From Chromatiales bacterium (lineage in GTDB: Bacteria > Pseudomonadota > Gammaproteobacteria > SpSt-1174): a stretch of DNA of 64,000 bases. The stretch lies in assembly GCA_014762505.1 (NCBI GenBank), contig JABURS010000043.1:248001-312000 (forward strand), written 5' to 3'. Position numbers and translations under genes: made by a program. The notes below the pieces were generated by a model that was not told the origin of the DNA, made no database searches, and was given only the letters and a program-made list of their open reading frames with translations. Of this stretch, positions 5,577-25,574 are shown one piece after another (the first letter of the stretch is position 1; each line of letters opens with the position of its first letter).

Positions 5577-6370
5577 GCCGCTGCCTCCTCCAACAGATCT
5601 GCCCACTCCTTGATCGGAATCGGTAGATACCAGGCAATGAGTTCACCCCGCATGGGCGCGTCGAGATTCTTGGCAAGGGTCTTGGCGCGTGCCTTGAGAT
5701 CCTGCTCACTCGGCGAGGTATCACGTACCAGGATCCCGACCAGCAGCAGTTCCCTTCCCCGAGAGGCCAGATAGCGGGAGACCGCCCGCTCGTAATAGTC
5801 CCGGTATGGTTGTTCCTTGCAGCGAGCCTGCAACCACTGCAAAAGTGAAAGTTGTATGTCGAGGCGGGAAGCGCTCTCCTCAAGCTGCCAGATCATGCCG
5901 CTGCCGCCAGACATCACCCCAGGCGGCGTGTTGGCATCCGAGGAGGTCTTGACCTCACCGAACAACAACAGGACCTCGTCGCCCTCCAGGCAAAAGCCGA
6001 CCAGGTCGGCCCCCGGCAGGCTGGCGCGCGGCGTGCGCCTGTCGCGCGCGGTGTTCCAGGGCCAACGGACCTCCCGGCCACCGTTGGTTTCGAGCACGCA
6101 TTCGGCTAAGGCTTCACCAACCTCCCAACCCTTTGGTTTGGGGACAGCTTTCAGTGCGTGCTCGACGAATTCGGTCGCCATGCCGGTCGTCGCAAGGGCC
6201 CGGAGGTCCGCCGCGAAACCCGAAGCGCTGTCCGTTACGCGTGGCGCGACGACCTTCCGTAGGTAGTCAGCAAACTCATCCTTGTCCTCAACCGCGTTCC
6301 CTGCCCAGCGAACCTGCTGTTCGCTGCCCGAGTAGGCGGCTGCCAGTGAGAGGCCAGCCGTTTCGCTCAT
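5573..6370 (-). CDS. PD-(D/E)xK nuclease-like protein, Hachiman HamA (DUF1837)-like
   Basis: This is a 265-residue soluble protein. A nuclease-type core can be read as Glu86/Glu90 in a helix (EVGEALAECVLE), then Asp122 in PGADLVGF and Glu139-x-Lys141 in LLLFGEVKTSSD. That is the D...ExK pattern of Cap4/HamA-type DNA nucleases. The ATG at 6370 overlaps the hsdS stop (ATGA), which rules out the longer open frame upstream. Its own TGA overlaps the helicase ATG. In Hachiman, HamA is a nuclease held inactive by the HamB helicase and released on sensing altered DNA; that is family knowledge. The assignment here is inferred from motif, size and the helicase neighbour. A homology search for DUF1837 would settle it. 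Confidence 0.6.
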   Translation of the reverse strand: MSETAGLSLAAAYSGSEQQVRWAGNAVEDKDEFADYLRKVVAPRVTDSASGFAADLRALATTGMATEFVEHALKAVPKPKGWEVGEALAECVLETNGGREVRWPWNTARDRRTPRASLPGADLVGFCLEGDEVLLLFGEVKTSSDANTPPGVMSGGSGMIWQLEESASRLDIQLSLLQWLQARCKEQPYRDYYERAVSRYLASRGRELLLVGILVRDTSPSEQDLKARAKTLAKNLDAPMRGELIAWYLPIPIKEWADLLEEAAA

Positions 6371-7723
6371 TCCGTTCCCTCGTTGATGTTTTCCATAAAT
6401 CGTTCGACATTCTTGATGCGCAGCTCGCCGGAGATCAGTCTTGGGAGCAAAGTATCTCTGAGACCGGCAAGATTTACCGAGACTTCCGCATTGGCCTTTA
6501 TGCTTTGAAACAGCGGCGTGATCTGATGGCCAAAGGTTTCCCACAACTTAGCATCAGATGGTGAGGCCACTTTGAATGCGGCAACCGAATCCCCCTGGGC
6601 GCGTTGACGGCCCGAGGTTCCAGTCATGCTTCGGATTGCATGGTCACGGAACGCACCGTCTCTCGCCAGTAGGTAGCCATAAGCGGGTGGCACCGGTGCT
6701 TTCGGTCGCATCACGATGTATTCGGTCGACCCCCATCCGACGGTTTCGTTCGGCAAACATTGAACGAAGGCCGTCTTGCCATTCTCCAAACAGGGTGTGA
6801 TGCGCGCCAGCAGGGTATCGCCATTACGAAAACGCATCCCGCTTCCAAACTCCCGCAGGATCGGCACATCGGGCCAGCTGCCTGACGTTGGTAGTGAGGC
6901 CATGTCGAGATACGGTGCTGGGGTGGCCCTGCGCAACGCTTCGGTTGGGTTGAATTCAATGAGCTCGCTCGCAGGAACCATCTTCCACCCCTCCGGTTTT
7001 CCCTCATCATCCAGCCGATCGGGGAAGAGCTGCCAGAGGTCGGGGGGGAGGTAGGGTTCGCGGCCTTCCATCTTGGCGCGGACGGGGCCGAAGTCGACGA
7101 ACCAGTCCTTGAACAGCGCGCGGGCCATGGCCTCCAGGGTCTGGTTGCGGCGGCGGTTGAGTTCGATCTTGTCGTCCAGCGTGCCGAGGATGTGGGCGAT
7201 GGCGCGTTGTTCATCTAGATCTGGAGGATGAGGAACAATTACGCTGCTAAGGAGCGATGTATTAAGCGAAGGCATTGTCGCACCGACAGCTATCGCGCGG
7301 ATATGCTCCTTGAATGTAGGATGCCCGAAGAAGTAGGAAAGATAGGACGAATCGATCTTTCCGGGATTCGGACGTACTCTTAGGCATCGACCGGAAAACA
7401 TCCACCCATCTTCTTCTTGTCGTACCAACGCACGTCGATCAACAGAGCCGACGCGGCTAAAGACGATGTCTCCTTCCCGAAGTAGATAGCGCGATAACCG
7501 GTCTCGGTCAGCGTCAGATACTCTAGGCAGATCTCGATGAAGGATGCGATTTTCACCGAGATGTTCGACCGTGATAATCGGGGTTCCTACGGGCACGTAG
7601 TCCTTTTGATGTAATTGGCTTCCGAACGGACCGGTCTGGATTCCTGAGGTGGGGTCGCACAGGTTCGCGAGGTCATCCGCCAGAAAATCGCCGGCAAATT
7701 GCCCGTAGGGGGTGTCGAGACCG

Positions 7724-7740
<17 letters not shown>
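6367..7740 (-). CDS. hsdS: Type I restriction-modification specificity subunit S
   Basis: HsdS recognises the two halves of the target site and docks HsdM and HsdR. The 457-residue protein has the usual two-repeat plan. A first target recognition domain covers about residues 1-180. A conserved helical spacer follows at about 182-240 ([17 protein letters not shown], then [20 protein letters not shown]). The second recognition domain runs to about 420, and a second conserved helix [13 protein letters not shown] lies near the end. The gene starts inside the end of hsdM, with ATG at 7740 or the in-frame ATG at 7734. Its stop overlaps the nuclease gene. The recognition domains are the parts expected to vary between strains, so the target sequence cannot be predicted. 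Confidence 0.95.
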
Positions 7741-9301
<1,561 letters not shown>

Positions 9302-18014: not shown

Positions 18015-19076
18015 TTACGGGCGCACGTCCTCGCGACGCGGGAACATCACCAGGTGGTCGATGTCGAGGCGGATCTTCATGCGTGCGCCGACCTCGTAGT
18101 CGTAGTGACTGTGGGCCAGTGACAGCACCTTGACGCCGCTCTGCAGGCGCAGGGTGTAGAGGAACTGGGCCCCGCGAAAGGCCTTGTCCAGCACCTCGGC
18201 CGGCAGGTCGGCGTTGTCGTCGTGCACGATGTCGTCCGGACGCACCAGGATGTCGACCTGGCAGCCCTTGCCGCAGAATGCCGGCACCTCCCCCTCGATG
18301 ATGCCGAGTTCGGTCTCCACCTGGTGGGGGTTGAGCACCGTGCCCGGCAGCAGAACCCCCTGGCCGATGAAGTCGGCCACGAAGCGGTTGGCCGGCTGGT
18401 GATACAGCTGGTAGCCGTTGGCCCACTGCTGCAGCTCACCCGCATTGATCACGCCGATCTCGTCGGCCATGGCGAAGGCCTCGAACTGGTCGTGGGTGAC
18501 CAGTAGGCCGGAGATGCCCTCCTGCTTGAGGATCGCGCGCACCTCGCGCGCGAGTCCCTCGCGCAGCTCCACATCCATGCTGGAGAAGGGTTCGTCCATG
18601 AGCAGCAGCTTGGGGCGGGGCGCCAGCGCCCGGGCCAGGGCGATGCGCTGCTGCTGGCCGCCGGAGAGCTGGTGCGGGTAGGCCTTGCCGTAGGCGGGCA
18701 GGCCCACGAGCTGCAGCAGCTGGGTGACACGGTCCTTGCGCTCGCCCACCGACTGCTGGCGGATGCCGAAGGCGATGTTCTCCTCCACGGTGAGGTGGGG
18801 AAACAGCGCGAAGTCCTGGAAGACCATGCCGACCTGGCGCTTCTCCGGCGGCAGGGCGTAGCCCGCGCGGCTCACCACCTCGCTGGCGAGATAGATCCAG
18901 CCCGAGGCCACCGGCTCGAAACCGGCGATGGCGCGCAGCAGGGTGGTCTTGCCGCAGCCGCTCGGCCCCAGCAGGCAGCCGATCATGCCCTCCTCCAGCT
19001 GGAAGGAGACCTCGTGCACCACGTGGCGCCTGCCGTAGGCGATGCTTACCTTGTCCAGTTCAAGCAGCGTGCTCAT
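18015..19076 (-). CDS. fbpC: Ferric iron ABC transporter ATP-binding protein
   Basis: A 353-residue ATPase that powers uptake of periplasmic Fe(III) through FbpB. Visible motifs are Walker A GPSGCGKTT (about residues 37-45), the Q-loop, the ABC signature LSGGQQQR, Walker B LLLMDEPFSSMD and the switch His in VTHDQ. The C-terminal 120 residues form a TOBE-like regulatory domain. It is the last gene of fbpABC, and its ATG lies 17 bases inside the end of fbpB. It converges on the chemoreceptor gene with 9 bases between stops. Such importers are usually Fur-repressed; a Fur-like box lies ahead of fbpA. Confidence 0.92.
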   Translation of the reverse strand: MSTLLELDKVSIAYGRRHVVHEVSFQLEEGMIGCLLGPSGCGKTTLLRAIAGFEPVASGWIYLASEVVSRAGYALPPEKRQVGMVFQDFALFPHLTVEENIAFGIRQQSVGERKDRVTQLLQLVGLPAYGKAYPHQLSGGQQQRIALARALAPRPKLLLMDEPFSSMDVELREGLAREVRAILKQEGISGLLVTHDQFEAFAMADEIGVINAGELQQWANGYQLYHQPANRFVADFIGQGVLLPGTVLNPHQVETELGIIEGEVPAFCGKGCQVDILVRPDDIVHDDNADLPAEVLDKAFRGAQFLYTLRLQSGVKVLSLAHSHYDYEVGARMKIRLDIDHLVMFPRREDVRP

Positions 19077-20754
19077 GGCCCGGTCTCGATCGACTGATGG
19101 AACGGCTGAGGATGATCACCGGGACGATCCCCGCCACGACGATGGCGAGCGCCGCCGTGGAGGCGTCGGCCAGCCGCTCGTCGGAGGCCAGCTCGAAGGT
19201 GCGCACCGCCAGGGTGTTGAAGTTGAAGGGCCGCAGTATCAACGTCGCCGGCAGCTCTTTCAAGACATCGACGAATACCAGCAGTATCGCCGTGAGCAGC
19301 GTGCCGCGCATGATCGGCATGTGGATCTTGCGCAGTACCTGGCGCGGCGGCATGCCCAGCGAGCGGGCGGCGTCGTCCATGGTGGGGCGGATCTTGCCCA
19401 GGCCCGCCTCCACCGTCTGGATGGACACGGCCAGGAAGCGCACGGTGTAGGCGAACAGCAGCGCGACCAGGGTGCCGCTCAGGATCAAACCGGTGGAGAT
19501 GCCGAACTGGGCGCGCATCCAGGCATCGATGGCATTGTCCGTCCAGGCGAAGGGCAGCATCACCCCCACGGCGATGACCGTGCCGGGCACGGCATAGCCC
19601 ATGGCGGCGACGCGCACCGAGGCGACCATCAGCGGCGTGGGGCGCAGGCGCTTGCCATAGCCCATGAGCAGGGCGAGCCCCACGGCGATCAGGGCCGCGA
19701 GGCTCGCGAGCATCAGGCTGTTCCAGGTCAGCGCGATGAAGTCCGCATCCACCATGGTCCCGGCGGTCTGCCAGGCCCAGACGGCGAGCTGGCCCGCGGG
19801 CACCACGAAGCCCAGCAACAGGGGCAGCAGGCAGGCCAGCAGGGCCAGCGCGAGTCGCGTGCCGCTGAGGCGATGGCGGGGCAGCTGCAGGTAGCGGTTG
19901 CTGGTGTGGTGGAAACGGGCACGGCGCCGTGACCAGCGCTCCAGCACGATGAGCAGGAAGACGAAGCCCATCAGTAGGGCCGAGAGCTGGGCGGCGGCGG
20001 CGCTGTCGCCCAGGCCGAACCAGGTGCGGAAGATGCCCGTGGTGAAGGTGCTCACGCCGAAGTACTGCACCGTGCCGTAGTCGGCCAGGGTCTCCATCAG
20101 GGCCAGCGACAGGCCGGTGATGATGGCGGGGCGGGCCAGCGGCAGGGCCACGCGGAAGAAGCTCGCCCAGGGGCCGAGGCCCAGGGTGCGGCTCACCTCC
20201 AGGACGCAGACCGACTGCTCGAGAAAGCCCGCGCGCGCCAGCAGGTAGACATAGGGATAGAGCACCAGCGAGAGCATGGCGATGGCCCCGCCCAGCGAGC
20301 GGATCTCGGGGAACCAGTAGTCGCCATAACCCCAGCCGAAGGCCTCGCGCAGGGCATCCTGTATCGGGCCCTCGAAGCCGAGCATGCCCGTGTAGGTGTA
20401 GGCGATGATGTAGGCCGGCACGGCCATGGGCAGCAGTAGCGCCCATTCGAAGAAGCGTCGCCCCGGGAACTCGCACATGCTGGTGAGCCAAGCCGTGCTG
20501 ATGCCCATCGTCAGCGTGCCGATGGCCACGCCGACCATCAGCAGCAGCGAGTTGACGACGTAGTCGGCGAGCACCGTCTCGGCCAGGTGGCGCCAGACGT
20601 CGCCGGCCGGATAGAAGATGAAGCTGAACACCACCAGCACCGGCAGCGACAGCAGCAGGGCCGTCGCCACCACGCCCACGCCCCAGGCGTCCGGCAGGGC
20701 CAGACGCCTGGGGCGGGTCACGGGTTGTGGTGATGCCACCGGGTTCGGATTCAT
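19060..20754 (-). CDS. fbpB: Ferric iron ABC transporter permease (fused two-copy type)
   Basis: A 564-residue inner-membrane permease built of two fused homologous halves, as in FbpB/SfuB. About twelve hydrophobic segments are visible. An EAA-type cytoplasmic loop occurs in each half (LEVSRTLGLGPWASFFRVALPLARPAI and MDDAARSLGMPPRQVLRKIHMPIM), where FbpC docks. The ATG at 20754 is used; a TTG at 20772 is also possible. The end overlaps fbpC by 17 bases. The leader between fbpA and fbpB carries a strong hairpin likely to lower permease yield relative to the binding protein. Confidence 0.92.
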   Translation of the reverse strand: MNPNPVASPQPVTRPRRLALPDAWGVGVVATALLLSLPVLVVFSFIFYPAGDVWRHLAETVLADYVVNSLLLMVGVAIGTLTMGISTAWLTSMCEFPGRRFFEWALLLPMAVPAYIIAYTYTGMLGFEGPIQDALREAFGWGYGDYWFPEIRSLGGAIAMLSLVLYPYVYLLARAGFLEQSVCVLEVSRTLGLGPWASFFRVALPLARPAIITGLSLALMETLADYGTVQYFGVSTFTTGIFRTWFGLGDSAAAAQLSALLMGFVFLLIVLERWSRRRARFHHTSNRYLQLPRHRLSGTRLALALLACLLPLLLGFVVPAGQLAVWAWQTAGTMVDADFIALTWNSLMLASLAALIAVGLALLMGYGKRLRPTPLMVASVRVAAMGYAVPGTVIAVGVMLPFAWTDNAIDAWMRAQFGISTGLILSGTLVALLFAYTVRFLAVSIQTVEAGLGKIRPTMDDAARSLGMPPRQVLRKIHMPIMRGTLLTAILLVFVDVLKELPATLILRPFNFNTLAVRTFELASDERLADASTAALAIVVAGIVPVIILSRSISRSRPGHEHAA

Positions 20755-20773
20755 GGGCTGCAGCAAACGCAAA

Positions 20774-20792
20774 GGGGGCGCATTGCGCCCCC
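20774..20792 (-). terminator. Attenuator-like hairpin between fbpA and fbpB
   Basis: GGGGGCG and CGCCCCC arms with a 5-base loop are followed on the minus strand by TTTGCGTTT. The T-run is interrupted, so it should stop only part of transcription or stabilise the fbpA message. It sits just before the fbpB start. Confidence 0.65.
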
Positions 20793-20821
20793 GGGCAAGA
20801 ATGCCTGCAGTTTACCAGACA

Positions 20822-21844
20822 TCATTTCCAGCCGGCACGATCCATCAGCATCAGTGCCTCGGCATTCAGCTCGCCGAGCCTGCCCATGTTGACGGCGTCG
20901 GCCATGAACTGACCCCAGTCTTCCAGCGTATCGCTCCAGGCCACGCCTTCCAGCACCGGATATTCGTGGTTGGTCTCGGCATACCAGCGCTGGGACTCGG
21001 CCTTGCTCATGAACTCCAGCAGTTTGATGGCGTTGGCCTTGTTGCGGGATGCGGCCGTCACGCCGGCGCCGCTCACGTTGACGTGCGTACCGCGGTCTGC
21101 CTGGTTGGGCCAGAACACGCCGACCTTCTCCGCGGCCTCACGCTGGGTGGCATCCGAGCCGTTGAGCATCATGGCCAGGTAGTAGGTGTTGGCGATGGCG
21201 ATGTCGCAGCGACCGGCCGCGGCGGCACTGATCTGGTCGCGGTCACCCCCGCGCGGTGGCTGGGCGAAGTTGGCGACGAAGTCGCGGGCCCAGGACTCGG
21301 TGGTCTTGACGCCGTTGCTCGCGATCATCGAGGCGACCAGCGACTGGTTATAGATGTTGCTGGAGGAGCGGATGCAGATGCGGCCCTTCCACTTCGGGTC
21401 GGCCAGGGCCTCGTAGGTGGAGAGTTCGGCGGGGTCGACCTTGCCCTTCACGTACATGATGGGTCGGGCACGCAGCGACAGGCCATACCAGTAGCCATCC
21501 GGGTCGCGGTAGCTGGCGGGGATGGCGTTCTCGAGCACGGTCGATGTGATCGGCTGCAGCACGCCGGCCTCTCTGGCGCGGTGCAGGCGGCCCGCATCGG
21601 TGGTCAGCAGCAGGTCGGCCGGGGTGTTGCGGCCCTCGGACTGCAGGCGCTGCAGCAGGGCATCGGCCTTGCCGGTGACCAGGTTGACCTCGATGCCGGT
21701 TTCCTTGGTGAAGCGTTCCAGCAGGGGCTTGATGAGCTCTTCCTTGCGCGCGGAGTACAGGTTGACCTCTTCGGCCGCCTGGGCGGCGGCGCCAAACAGG
21801 CCCAGGGCCAGCAGACCGGCCAGCATCAGAAAACGACTACGCAT
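20822..21844 (-). CDS. fbpA: Ferric iron periplasmic binding protein
   Basis: A 340-residue Fe(III)-binding protein of the FbpA/FutA family. The signal peptide ends AAAQA (about residue 23). The mature protein begins EEVNLYSARKEELIKPLLERF, typical of the family. A region with clustered tyrosines (SNIYNQSLVASMI, NTYYLAMM) would supply iron ligands in the cleft. It is the first gene of fbpABC, with GGGAG before the ATG. A Fur-box-like sequence lies about 55-70 bases upstream, so iron repression is expected. Confidence 0.93.
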   Translation of the reverse strand: MRSRFLMLAGLLALGLFGAAAQAAEEVNLYSARKEELIKPLLERFTKETGIEVNLVTGKADALLQRLQSEGRNTPADLLLTTDAGRLHRAREAGVLQPITSTVLENAIPASYRDPDGYWYGLSLRARPIMYVKGKVDPAELSTYEALADPKWKGRICIRSSSNIYNQSLVASMIASNGVKTTESWARDFVANFAQPPRGGDRDQISAAAAGRCDIAIANTYYLAMMLNGSDATQREAAEKVGVFWPNQADRGTHVNVSGAGVTAASRNKANAIKLLEFMSKAESQRWYAETNHEYPVLEGVAWSDTLEDWGQFMADAVNMGRLGELNAEALMLMDRAGWK

Positions 21845-22024: not shown

Positions 22025-22717
22025 TCAGACCTTGATGTAGGTCCAGCCGTCGCGCATCCGCTCGATGATGTGCTCCACGGCAGAGGGCGCGGTATGGGTC
22101 CTGGGCAACAGCACCACGTCGACGCCGGCGCGCTCCAGGTGGCGGATGGCGGTGTCGCAGGCAATGAACTGGAGTTCCTCGTGCTCGGCCATCATGGCCA
22201 ACACGCGCTGGCCGTAGGGGGAGCCGCCCGCGCGCAACATGTGCAGTCCCTCGCTGTTGGCCACCACCTCGATCTGCACGCCCTGTTCGCGGTATTCCTC
22301 GAGCAGCGACTCGGCACGGTCGAGCGTGGCCTGCATCTTGGCCGGTTCGGCCGTGGCGATGTGCAGGAGGATGCGCGGTGCCTGTTCCGCCGTCGCCACC
22401 TGCTGCAGGGGGCTGGTGCTGTGATGGTTGGCCAGCCAGCCGCCGGAAAAGCCCAGTGAGATCAGCAGGGCGGCAGCGACGCCGAAGGCCGCCAGGCGCT
22501 TGCGCGGATGGTTCGTGTCGACGACCTCGCGGCGAGGTGCCTCCACCCCGTCATAGGCATGGCGCACGAGGTCCTTGAGGTTGCGCAGCTCGACGTACTC
22601 GGCGCGCAGGGCCGGGTCCTTTTCCATGTCGAGCAGGAAGGCGTCACGCTCCTGGTGGCTGAGTTCGCCATCCAGGTAGGCATGAATACGCGCTTCGTCG
22701 CGAACACTCTCGGTCAT
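22025..22717 (-). CDS. Transmembrane anti-sigma factor with periplasmic DsrE-like domain
   Basis: A 230-residue protein. Residues 1-60 look like a short cytoplasmic anti-sigma domain (EARIHAYLDGELSHQERDAFL), without the zinc-binding HxxxCxxC. One membrane helix lies at about 75-96. Residues 115-230 form a DsrE/DsrF-like domain (ILLHIATAEPAKMQATLDRA, GVQIEVVANSEGLHML, FIACDTAI with Cys187), which would face the periplasm. Its ATG overlaps the sigma stop (ATGA), the normal arrangement for a cognate pair. The DsrE half is clearly similar to the secreted protein encoded divergently at 23679, including the Cys. A sensor role for this domain is inference. A terminator follows. Confidence 0.75.
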   Translation of the reverse strand: MTESVRDEARIHAYLDGELSHQERDAFLLDMEKDPALRAEYVELRNLKDLVRHAYDGVEAPRREVVDTNHPRKRLAAFGVAAALLISLGFSGGWLANHHSTSPLQQVATAEQAPRILLHIATAEPAKMQATLDRAESLLEEYREQGVQIEVVANSEGLHMLRAGGSPYGQRVLAMMAEHEELQFIACDTAIRHLERAGVDVVLLPRTHTAPSAVEHIIERMRDGWTYIKV

Positions 22718-23277
22718 TTAACCCTCCTCAGATGAGGTCTGCCCGCCTCGGTGGCGGCGGCTGCAGGCATGTACAGATCGGTGAGAAACCCGGTCAGGGC
22801 GCGACGGGCCCGACACAGGCGGCTCATCACCGTCCCAACCGGGATGTCGAGTATCTCGGCCGTCTCGGCGTAGGCAAAGCCTTCGAGATCCACCAGTGTG
22901 AGCACCTCGCGCTGGCCAATGGGCAGTTTGCCCACGGCGCGGCGTACACGGTTGACGATCTCCTGGCTGGTCATCTCGACTTCGGGGCAATTCTCGCAGA
23001 CGAACATCTCGTCGTCGATCTCCACCCCGGGCTTCTGCCGGCGCAGGTGTTCCCGCCAGGTGTTGCTGAGGATGGCGCTGAGCCAGTGCTCGAGCTTGTT
23101 GCCATCACGCAGCTGGTGGCTCTTCTGCATGGCCTTGATCAGGGTGTCCTGTACCAGGTCGTCGGCCAGCATGGGGTCGCCACACCAGGCCAGGGCCATG
23201 CGGTACAGCCGCGTTCGACTGGCCTCCAGTTTCTTCTTGAACGTGCGCGTCGCACAGATGTGCTCGAGTACTTTCAT
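22714..23277 (-). CDS. ECF-type RNA polymerase sigma factor
   Basis: A 187-residue extracytoplasmic-function sigma factor. Region 2 is at about residues 20-85 (RMALAWCGDPMLADDLVQDTLIKAM, then LEHWLSAILSNTWREHLR). Region 4 is at about 110-165 (LPIGQREVLTLVDLEGFAYAETAEILDIPVGTVMSRLCRARRAL), which binds the -35 box. The last 20 residues are a basic tail. It is followed directly by its anti-sigma factor. A candidate promoter GGAATA-N16-CATCAT lies just ahead. The same motif lies ahead of the divergent DsrE-like gene, consistent with autoregulation and a shared regulon. Confidence 0.93.
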   Translation of the reverse strand: MKVLEHICATRTFKKKLEASRTRLYRMALAWCGDPMLADDLVQDTLIKAMQKSHQLRDGNKLEHWLSAILSNTWREHLRRQKPGVEIDDEMFVCENCPEVEMTSQEIVNRVRRAVGKLPIGQREVLTLVDLEGFAYAETAEILDIPVGTVMSRLCRARRALTGFLTDLYMPAAAATEAGRPHLRRVK

Positions 23278-23294
23278 CTCTCCACCTACCCTGC

Positions 23295-23322
23295 ATGATG
23301 CGTCGCCGGTTTTCTCTATTCC
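23295..23322 (-). promoter_or_regulatory. Candidate ECF promoter of the sigma operon
   Basis: Minus strand: GGAATA (23322-23317), 16 bases, CATCAT (23300-23295). The start site would fall about 11 bases before the sigma ATG, with a GGTGGAGAG ribosome site between. Both hexamers and the spacing match the copy at 23582-23609. Confidence 0.6.
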
Positions 23323-23581
23323 CGCTCTTGTGCGTGCATGGCTAGCGCGATGGCGGTTTTGCGACGTGGTTTGTCTGTCGGTGACTTCAGTAGTGGCGTA
23401 TTTCCTTTGCCAGCGAACGAGTCTACCGCCAGCGGCGTCGCATCGAAAGAAACAGAAGTATGTAAGAAACTTCTAATCTTCTAAGACTCCTTCGATATGG
23501 CGGTGTTTTTTCTGCTTTGAGTAACGAGAGCGTGATTGTTGCGATTCACCTGTGGCAAGGATGGCGTGTCGAGCAAGGAAA

Positions 23582-23609
23582 GGAATATTTGTGATCCGGC
23601 GTGCGTCAA
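23582..23609 (+). promoter_or_regulatory. Candidate ECF promoter of the DsrE-like/porin genes
   Basis: GGAATA (23582-23587), 16 bases, CGTCAA (23604-23609). The spacing equals that of the minus-strand copy, and both spacers contain CCGGCG. It would give a leader of about 60 bases before the 23679 start. Confidence 0.6.
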
Positions 23610-23678
23610 TTCGTCGTGGATGCAGAACAGCGCATGCATGTACGCCAGGGAAATCATCAACAACAACAGAGGCAGACA

Positions 23679-24134
23679 ATGAAACGCCACACCTTTTTCG
23701 CTGCGTTTTTCGCAGTGTTCTTGATTGCTGTCAGCGGTGCGTCGAGCGCTTTCGCAGCAGAGACCTCCTCCAAGCCATTCGCCGAAAAGCATGTCGTGCT
23801 GCAGATATCGGACGAAGATCCCTTCAAGCAGACGCTCGTGCTCAATGTGGCCAACAACCTCATCAAGCACTACGGTCCCGACAAGGTCGACATCGAGATC
23901 GTGGCCTTTGGGCCTGGTCTGAGATTGCTGTTTTCCGATAACGCAAACAGGGGGCGCATTGGCGATCTTTCACAGCAGGGGGTGCGGTTCGCCGCCTGTG
24001 AAAACACGATTGCCAACATGTCGCGCATCCTGGGCGAAGAACCGGTGTTGAACGACAAGGCCGTGCGGGTCTCTGCCGGCGTGGTGCGCATCCTGGATCT
24101 TGAGGCCGATGGGTACACGCTGATTCGTCCGTGA
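23679..24134 (+). CDS. Secreted DsrE-family protein
   Basis: A 151-residue periplasmic protein. The signal peptide ends near residue 27 (VSGASSAFAAE). The mature part is a DsrE-like alpha/beta fold: HVVLQISDEDPFKQTLVLNVANNL, VDIEIVAFGPGLRLLF, then GVRFAACENTI with Cys107. Cytoplasmic relatives carry persulfide on such a cysteine; a periplasmic role is not established. It is homologous to the periplasmic half of the anti-sigma factor encoded divergently, with the motif F-x-A-C-[DE]-x at the same place. The start MKRHTFF is chosen for the signal peptide; the open frame extends upstream without one. A porin follows. Confidence 0.8.
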   Translation: MKRHTFFAAFFAVFLIAVSGASSAFAAETSSKPFAEKHVVLQISDEDPFKQTLVLNVANNLIKHYGPDKVDIEIVAFGPGLRLLFSDNANRGRIGDLSQQGVRFAACENTIANMSRILGEEPVLNDKAVRVSAGVVRILDLEADGYTLIRP

Positions 24135-24200
24135 TCCAGGCTCGGGTTCTGCGCGCATATGCAGAGAAGGAAAAAGAAAAATATTGGGGAGTTAGATTTC

Positions 24201-25574
24201 ATGTTGAAAGCAAAAAGACTGGCTGGCGCGATGGCGCTGGCCCTGGGGATGGCCGCGGCAGGTCAGGTGCAGGCAGCGAACTGGGTGATGTTGCAGGGTA
24301 CGGAGGCGGATGGCATGGGCGAGCGGGCGAAGCTGTGGGGATTCCTGCAGCCGACCTATCGCTCCACTGACGGTACCGTGCTGCCTGCAGGACCATGGGA
24401 AGGGCAGCCCATGCAGCCCAACATGATTCCCACCGACCTGAGTTCGGATTCGCAGTTCCAGCTGTTGCGAGCCCGCATCGGCGTACGTGGCGTGGCAATG
24501 CCGATCGACAGCAAGGTGAATTATTTCCTGCTGGCGGAATTCGGTGACAACGGTATTACAGCCGGCAAGGGCGGGGCGGGCGTGATCTCCGATGCCAGCG
24601 TGACGCTCAATCACATTCCGGGTGCGCGCGTTCGCCTGGGTCTCTTCAAGACGCCGATGAGCGAGGAGATCTTCCAGGGCGTGGGGACGATGGACTATGT
24701 CAACTTTACCGCCTTTACCGATCAGCAGCTCAACGAGCGGCACCTGCCAACCGATGGGTTGGCGCCCTGTAATGCTGCAGCCGATGATGCATATCTGCGC
24801 TATTGCGAGGAGGGCAACACCTTCAGCGACTTCGGTGCGGCTCGCGATACCGGGGCCATGGTCTTCGACGCCTTCCGCCGTGGCGACTGGGAGCATACCT
24901 ATGCCGTGATGCTCGGCAACGGCAGCGGTGTGAACGCCGGGAATACCGATGACAACCTCGATACCCGTGCCTACTGGTCATCCGAGTGGATCTTCGGCGG
25001 TCAGGGGCCGCGTCGCGAGGGCTGGAAGCTCTATGCCTGGATGCATGACGGCAAGCGTACCGTGCTTGACAGTGTGCAGCTGGCCGCAGGCAACCGGGTC
25101 GAGAACGAATACGACTACGAGCGCTCCGGTGTGGGTACTACCTACCGTCGTGGCAAGTACCGTTTCTTCGCCGAGTACAACCAGGCCGAAGGCATGATCT
25201 TCAACGGTACCGACGGCGGGGCCGTGGCGGGTTCGGTGAATAACGCGGGCACCGCGGTATCCACCTTAAATCTCCTGCCGGAGGACAAGGCGAACGGTTA
25301 CTACCTCGATTTCGGTTACAAGATCACACCAAAGGTCGAGCTGGATGTGCGCTATGACGTGCTGAATCGTGGTACGGAGACCGACGTGGAAGAGCGTAAG
25401 TTCGAGACCGTGACACTCGGCGCCCAGTACTTCTTCAACCGCAAGTCGCGCCTGATCGTGAACTACGAGATGCGTGACCTGGAAGCACCCAATCTGCCGG
25501 CCAATGCCGTGCCGAACCAGATCGGTGAGGCCATCGATGATCGCCTGTCCGTCCAGGTCTTCATGGTCTTCTAG
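24201..25574 (+). CDS. Outer-membrane porin (phosphate-selective OprO/OprP-like barrel)
   Basis: A 457-residue barrel. The signal peptide ends GQVQA. Alternating strands are visible throughout (SKVNYFLLAEFG, ARVRLGLFKTPMSEEI, KYRFFAEYNQAEGMIF, KVELDVRYDVLNRG). The C-terminal residue is Phe (LSVQVFMVF), needed for BAM insertion. The GLFKTPMSEE region resembles phosphate-selective porins O and P, but the solute is not known. GGGAG lies 10 bases before the ATG. It lies 66 bases after the DsrE-like gene with no terminator between them, so both are probably expressed from the ECF-type promoter. A strong terminator follows. Confidence 0.85.
   Translation: MLKAKRLAGAMALALGMAAAGQVQAANWVMLQGTEADGMGERAKLWGFLQPTYRSTDGTVLPAGPWEGQPMQPNMIPTDLSSDSQFQLLRARIGVRGVAMPIDSKVNYFLLAEFGDNGITAGKGGAGVISDASVTLNHIPGARVRLGLFKTPMSEEIFQGVGTMDYVNFTAFTDQQLNERHLPTDGLAPCNAAADDAYLRYCEEGNTFSDFGAARDTGAMVFDAFRRGDWEHTYAVMLGNGSGVNAGNTDDNLDTRAYWSSEWIFGGQGPRREGWKLYAWMHDGKRTVLDSVQLAAGNRVENEYDYERSGVGTTYRRGKYRFFAEYNQAEGMIFNGTDGGAVAGSVNNAGTAVSTLNLLPEDKANGYYLDFGYKITPKVELDVRYDVLNRGTETDVEERKFETVTLGAQYFFNRKSRLIVNYEMRDLEAPNLPANAVPNQIGEAIDDRLSVQVFMVF

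Follow-up and report, generated by a model that had tools for sequence, protein, structure and literature searches.

Control of sulfur genes by ECF sigma factors is not new as such. In the accessible part of its published description, the Sinorhizobium meliloti system of RpoE1 and RpoE4 (ECF26) responds to sulfite-generating thiosulfate or taurine and controls sorT (PMC3511301). Its likeness to the locus analysed here, for which autoregulation and a response to sulfur are predicted, lies in an autoregulated, sulfur-responsive ECF sigma/anti-sigma pair with the periplasmic SorT as a target; however, the same part of that paper calls the partner a putative anti-sigma factor, mentions neither a DsrE sensor nor a secreted DsrE protein or a porin, and names sulfite oxidation in a heterotroph as the target process (PMC3511301). 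In Arcobacter butzleri, sigma2 and sigma7 also belong to ECF sigma/anti-sigma pairs whose mutants show altered soxCDXYZAB expression, but their regulons are broad and overlapping (nap, tct and sox), and the description, on which this comparison is based, reports no DsrE domain (PMC3445524). Regulation of sox genes in facultative sulfur oxidisers is known to involve SoxR and sHdrR, both of them repressors that reside in the cytoplasm (PMC11582611). As studied with SoxT in Hyphomicrobium denitrificans, they tie sox expression to sulfur, and a SoxT-like PF04143 transporter belongs to the regulon predicted here as well; they differ in belonging to the ArsR type and in depending on SoxT for the import of sulfur, whereas the sensor described here faces the periplasm and would act by releasing a sigma factor (PMC10451225, PMC12423496, PMC11582611). 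SoxT carries sulfur or a signal across the membrane (PMC11582611).

Two further families have to be compared with the locus. DsrE proteins are sulfur carriers, and the DsrE/TusD/MTH1491 members known to us (PDB entry 1l1s, PF02635) are soluble proteins. The domains studied here share with them the fold, the position of a conserved cysteine and a C-terminal strand, but one of the two forms the sensor of a membrane anti-sigma factor, and the other is exported. FecI/FecR systems comprise a sigma factor and a membrane anti-sigma factor next to a gene for an outer-membrane protein, an arrangement that is also seen here; in contrast to them, the partner is porin-like and not a recognised TonB receptor, and a DsrE domain stands in place of the FecR domain.

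A search of the open papers accessible to searching revealed no described system in which an ECF sigma or anti-sigma factor is combined with DsrE. Within that literature the arrangement appears to be new, and its new parts are (i) a DsrE sensor outside the membrane, (ii) a partner operon for a secreted DsrE protein and a porin, and (iii) a promoter shared with sulfur genes.

Gene content and domain architecture of the locus

The locus was found in a DNA stretch of 64,000 nucleotides (the window). The conserved unit consists of four genes: a sigma factor and its anti-sigma factor with a DsrE domain, divergent from a secreted DsrE protein and an OprO/P-like porin (Table 1). The genes, their coordinates and the F-x-A-C-[DE] pattern are as the initial annotation had given them; the exact motifs are FIACD, with Cys187, in the anti-sigma factor and FAACE, with Cys107, in the secreted protein.

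Table 1. Genes and predicted promoters of the locus (positions in the window)
Feature	Position	Strand	Details
Anti-sigma factor with periplasmic DsrE sensor domain (P0001)	22025..22717	minus	230 aa
ECF sigma factor (P0002)	22714..23277	minus	187 aa; Sigma70_r4_2 1e-17, Sigma70_r2 3e-13
Predicted sigma-dependent promoter of sigma/anti-sigma operon, GGAATAGAGAAAACCGGCGACGCATC	23297..23322	minus	45 to 20 bases before sigma start; weaker match
Predicted sigma-dependent promoter of dsrE-porin operon, GGAATATTTGTGATCCGGCGTGCGTC	23582..23607	plus	97 bases before dsrE start
Secreted DsrE-fold protein (P0003)	23679..24134	plus	151 aa, ATG 23679; Sec-type signal peptide about 1-26; single invariant Cys107
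Outer-membrane porin-like protein, OprO/P-like (P0004)	24159..25574	plus	24 bases after dsrE

The sigma factor is assigned to the ECF group (group 4 of the sigma-70 family) by Pfam matches above cut-off to both regions r2 and r4_2, by the adjoining anti-sigma gene, and by the promoter that its orthologues share. The 3' end of its gene overlaps the start of the anti-sigma gene by 4 bases, and the two genes are adjacent in all loci from named genomes except those cut by a contig end.

The anti-sigma factor has the layout of a membrane anti-sigma factor, with an N-terminal helical region, one transmembrane helix and a C-terminal sensor outside. In the AlphaFold model, three cytoplasmic helices occupy residues 2-54, the transmembrane helix spans about residues 79-96, within a hydrophobic stretch of about 75-96, and the DsrE domain extends over residues 115-229. 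Lysine or arginine residues lie N-terminal to the single transmembrane helix in nearly all of 34 aligned sensor members; therefore the DsrE domain is placed on the periplasmic side, as first proposed, and a cytoplasmic location is ruled out. Cys187 is the sole cysteine of the window's protein; it is retained in all 34 sensors, none of which has a further cysteine past residue 97.

Two familiar types of anti-sigma factor were considered and rejected. The Pfam zf-HC2 model scores 20.3 bits on the N-terminus, a marginal value below the cut-off of 22.2, and the HxxxC motif is absent from the first 60 residues of the 34 sensor members, which rules out a zinc anti-sigma factor (zf-HC2, HxxxCxxC). 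TonB-type cell-surface signalling of the FecI/FecR kind was rejected on the Pfam search of the anti-sigma factor, which detected no FecR domain, and on the porin, a homologue of which matches PF07396. This match, to Porin_O_P, was obtained for one member of the porin family (2e-13); we take PF07396 to be a family of outer-membrane anion porins.

Kinship of the two DsrE domains

A BLASTP comparison of the two window proteins alone found no significant similarity (E 6.9), so that profile and structure comparisons were needed. Alignment of the family profiles with hhalign identified the sensor and secreted DsrE families as homologous over the whole domain (probability 99.5, E 4e-23), and a phmmer search with the secreted protein recovered the anti-sigma factor in the genome at E 1e-7. 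By sequence, PDB entry 1l1s (MTH1491) is matched by both the C-terminal domain of the anti-sigma factor (E 1.6e-7) and the secreted protein (E 2.6e-11). AlphaFold modelling of the two proteins from alignments of related loci gave mean pLDDT values of 84.0 and 87.4, with more than 90 in the DsrE parts; both models match 1l1s with a target TM of 0.92 and, more weakly, ST0148, DsrEFH, TusBCD or YchN. Thus, both domains are predicted to adopt the DsrE fold. The conserved active cysteine of the DsrE/DsrF-like superfamily is present in each, as Cys187 in the sensors and as Cys107 in the aligned secreted proteins, where it is invariant and lines up with the cysteines of 1l1s and 2pd2. The resemblance between the periplasmic half of the anti-sigma factor and the secreted protein that the initial annotation had noticed in the sequence therefore reflects homology, and its DsrE assignment of the sensor stands.

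Pfam and NCBIfam name neither of the window's DsrE domains, both of which stay below PF02635; the model is reached by a second secreted DsrE protein of the same genome and by the Thiobacillus form. The arrangement is therefore easily missed. In the tree, the sensor domains form one branch (support 99/100) opposite the linked secreted proteins, a split that is consistent with one fusion event. The DsrE protein linked to Thiobacillus-type loci belongs to a different subfamily.

Conservation of the module

We counted full-length sensor loci in 369 genomes of the window's class and found 81 of them in 63 genomes from 39 families, or in about one-sixth of the sample. A DsrE gene lies within 3.5 kb of the sensor in 46 of the 81 loci. 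Upstream, divergent positions account for 37 placements, with little variation in distance, and positions downstream on the sensor's strand for 14. A porin gene stands divergently upstream of the sensor in 39 of the 81. Neither DsrE nor porin was detected near the sensor in 30 loci, some of which lie at contig ends and some of which form a separate subfamily. Contig ends conceal partners, for example in genome G069, where the sensor and the DsrE-porin pair stand at the ends of two contigs. Many DsrE-porin pairs are found without a sensor nearby.

A separate scan of named genomes, using a profile from a five-row alignment, yielded 41 sensor loci, mostly from Thiobacillus, Thiohalobacter, Thiogranum, Thioalkalivibrio, Thiomicrospira, Thiomicrorhabdus and Halothiobacillus; a DsrE gene is clustered with the sensor in 32 of them and a porin gene in 22. 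The Thiobacillus loci adjoin a gene for a thioredoxin-like protein of the SSP411 type. A subclade of sensors from Thiohalobacter and Thiogranum (L049, L051, L066, L072 and L075) has no linked dsrE of the window's type, and its -35 box is a variant that starts with TGAATAA or CGAATAA; the sensor family therefore includes more than one specificity. Among 130 genomes sampled from the phylum, many of the same class and few from outside it, no full-length sensor was found outside the window's class.

The survey thus supports the expectation that sigma/anti-sigma-DsrE genes would stand next to a secreted DsrE gene in many genomes. Three outcomes had been named at the outset as counting against the proposal, namely a missing DsrE fold in the anti-sigma factor, a cytoplasmic topology, and loss of linkage in other genomes, and none of them occurred.

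Promoter motif and predicted regulon

In the named loci, sigma and dsrE genes share an upstream pattern, GGAATAW-N15-C[G/A]TC, present at 29 of the 33 linked dsrE genes and at the majority of sigma genes. At the sigma gene of the window the match is weak, with a weight-matrix score of 3.8 where the 95% null lies at 3.6, and its support comes mainly from the strong sites of orthologues. Since the weight matrix was trained partly on the sites that it scores, only exact-pattern matches at independent genes count as independent evidence. The pattern resembles other ECF promoters, and some sites could serve another ECF sigma factor.

An exact pattern search through the whole of the window's own genome gave only four sites, against one for the reversed pattern. 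These sites are (i) the promoter of the dsrE-porin operon, (ii) a site about 140 bases before the gene of the second secreted DsrE protein (L042:7372-7812, PF02635) on another contig, (iii) a site about 120 bases before the gene of a SoxT/TsuA-like PF04143 'Sulphur transport' protein (L108), and (iv) a site at 7944-7969 of the window, antisense within a type I restriction-modification methylase gene, that was taken as a chance match.

In ten other sensor-bearing genomes, the pattern occurred 45 times and its reversed form 12 times. Sites precede soxX in genomes G309 and G206, soxB in G011, a PF04143-like transporter gene in G001 and, in both G001 and G188, the gene of one and the same putative solute-binding protein. 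Upstream regions of soxX carry an exact sense-strand site in 10 of 59 sensor-bearing genomes, where shuffling predicts 0.03, and in 1 of 40 genomes that lack the sensor; the excess over shuffling is the stronger result, the contrast between the two sets of genomes reaching only p 0.046. Control of sox genes is therefore lineage-specific, and in the window's own genome no such control was seen. The common core of the predicted regulon is the link to the dsrE-porin operon. Because a predicted sigma promoter precedes dsrE, the secreted DsrE protein is likely to be a target, or output, of the sigma factor. The initial annotation had correctly recognised a secreted DsrE-like partner, which has both the signal peptide and the fold, but had overlooked the porin in the module, the sigma promoter, the partner's likely status as a sigma target and the tie to lineages with sox genes.

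Co-occurrence with sulfur oxidation

The soxB gene, which encodes a thiosulfohydrolase, was detected above the curated cut-off in about 147 of the 369 genomes. It is present in 62 of 63 genomes with a sensor versus 86 of 306 genomes without one (Fisher p 8e-28), and the only soxB-less sensor genome, G057, has soxX. With one genome per family, the counts are 31 of 32 versus 36 of 126 (p 4e-13); in both comparisons some phylogenetic dependence remains. This co-occurrence of sensor and sox genes is a correlation. Taken with the regulon, the lineage evidence for a role in sulfur metabolism is strong.

Proposed mechanism and alternative explanations

We propose that the ECF sigma/anti-sigma system reports reduced sulfur in the periplasm and drives a regulon for sulfur uptake and oxidation, a reading to which we assign a probability of about 0.7. 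In the resting state, the sigma factor would be bound at the membrane by the anti-sigma factor's cytoplasmic helices. A sulfur species (derived from thiosulfate or tetrathionate, a persulfide or a polysulfide) would then modify Cys187, either directly or via a carrier. DsrE3A of Metallosphaera reacts in vitro only with tetrathionate and not with sulfide or polysulfide (PMC4175335); since some DsrE proteins are thus inert to the latter, the species listed are candidates. Sensing probably proceeds through chemistry at Cys187, and modification of this residue is the simplest trigger, because the sensor's one invariant cysteine has no partner with which to form an internal disulfide. The modification would loosen the hold of the anti-sigma factor and free the sigma factor, by a change of shape or by proteolysis. 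The freed sigma factor would transcribe its own operon and the sulfur regulon from the promoters of the above pattern: in the window's genome, the genes for the secreted DsrE protein and the anion-porin-like protein, the second secreted DsrE protein and the PF04143 transporter, and in other lineages also the soxX operon or soxB. In the periplasm, these secreted proteins of the DsrE type would carry or bind sulfur, and their homology to the sensor could allow them to influence it in return.

The initial annotation suggested that the secreted protein could pair with the sensor domain or compete with it. Such a contact, in which the secreted DsrE protein docks on the sensor DsrE domain in mixed trimers or hexamers and either transfers sulfur from Cys107 to Cys187 or acts as a decoy, may exist as an obligatory step of sensing, and we regard this as possible but doubtful. 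The homology of the two domains, the one invariant cysteine in each and the strong gene linkage speak for it, as does a precedent: DsrE3A forms Cys-S-thiosulfonates with tetrathionate, binds TusA tightly and hands thiosulfate to it (PMC4175335). Against it, many sensor loci have no DsrE gene nearby, many DsrE-porin pairs have no sensor nearby, the linked DsrE of the Thiobacillus type is of another subfamily, and the promoter marks the secreted protein as a likely output. The specific version, with a persulfide or thiosulfonate on Cys107, co-assembly with the sensor and sulfur transfer to Cys187 as the step that would release the sigma factor, we hold to be decidedly tentative.

The cysteine might instead report periplasmic oxidants or disulfide stress, sulfur flow being tied to redox state. 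Single-cysteine chemistry would also suit an intermolecular disulfide or a sulfenic acid, and the thioredoxin-like gene beside the Thiobacillus loci fits such a role. However, the predicted targets are genes of sulfur uptake, binding and oxidation rather than of oxidant defence, nearly all carriers are sox-bearing genomes, and the periplasmic part lacks a second cysteine for an internal disulfide, so that we consider redox or thiol-stress sensing unlikely. Of the original suggestion that the system reports on sulfur or redox state in the periplasm, the sulfur part has thus gained ground, through the soxX and PF04143 sites and the soxB co-occurrence, and the redox part is retained as a less likely rival.

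It is still less probable that the system senses the state of the envelope or its porins in the manner of RseA, with the DsrE fold as a structural binding domain devoid of sulfur chemistry. Membrane anti-sigma factors often report envelope state and a porin belongs to the module, but the porin is missing at many sensor loci, the cysteine is invariant in all sensors, and both regulon and lineage are sulfur-specific. Finally, a chance pairing of an ordinary sigma/anti-sigma pair with an unrelated DsrE gene of coincidental similarity, which the two-protein BLASTP result and the sub-threshold Pfam scores might suggest, has a negligible probability given the profile comparison and the structures, and is refuted by the conserved linkage and the shared promoters.

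Implications

The way in which sulfur oxidisers sense sulfur outside the cytoplasm has been described as poorly understood (PMC11582611). A candidate periplasmic sensor can now be put forward, for which a promoter and target genes are defined, and the presence of cultured Thiobacillus, Thiomicrospira and Thiomicrorhabdus among the carriers makes the sensing question directly testable. The two proteins and the one promoter would also yield a cell-surface sulfur biosensor. If the relay from Cys107 to Cys187 is true, this would be the first sigma system to be switched by sulfur that passes from one protein to another outside the cytoplasm, and one common to many lineages of chemolithotrophic sulfur oxidisers. 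The switch with the DsrE sensor may be the means by which sulfur oxidisers sense extracellular sulfur compounds.

Further DsrE genes and occurrences of the predicted sigma promoter

The genome of the window (G000) also encodes a second secreted DsrE protein; in Thiobacillus, DsrE proteins of this type are encoded in linkage with the sigma gene. Despite lying on a separate contig, the G000 gene has its own predicted promoter, GGAATAAG-N14-CGTC. The third DsrE protein of this genome has a twin-arginine-like signal (RRRFLRG), and the sigma promoter is absent at its gene.

The predicted promoter is also found ~120 bases 5' of a sulfur transporter gene of G000, and the same promoter precedes a PF04143-like gene in another sensor-bearing genome (G001, locus L172). 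In two genomes (locus L167 in G188 and L173 in G001), it is followed by the same putative extracytoplasmic solute-binding protein, for the tested piece of which NCBIfam gave no name. The exact promoter-pattern match inside a methylase gene of the window is probably due to chance.

Coordinates of additional features
Feature	Location	Position	Context
Second secreted DsrE (PF02635)	L042 (G000:C35)	7372-7812	contig other than the window's
Third DsrE	L043 (G000:C28)	6795-7301	flanked by dnaJ and dapB
PF04143 transporter (TsuA/SoxT-like)	L108 (G000:C26)	around 1648-2919	
Additional DsrE-like secreted protein	L059 (Thiobacillus)	6042-6776	near module
Ferric-type ABC transporter (binding protein, permease, ATPase)	window	18015-21844	after anti-sigma gene
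Exact promoter-pattern match	window	7944-7969	antisense, within type I restriction-modification methylase gene

Variation among sensor loci

The ferric-type ABC transporter beside the anti-sigma gene is common to the window and the near relative L044 and is not clustered in the remaining named loci. Thiobacillus loci, such as L059, have an additional DsrE-like secreted protein near the module, and a gene for a secreted SSP411/thioredoxin-like protein directly 3' of the anti-sigma gene.

Sensors of Thiohalobacter/Thiogranum (L049, L051, L057, L066, L072, and L075) form a separate subfamily, for which no linked secreted DsrE was found at these loci and the -35 box is a variant, TGAATAA or CGAATAA. 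The conserved neighbor of the L051 and L057 sensors is a large secreted protein; those of the L066 and L075 sensors are metallo-beta-lactamase-fold proteins and another DsrE.
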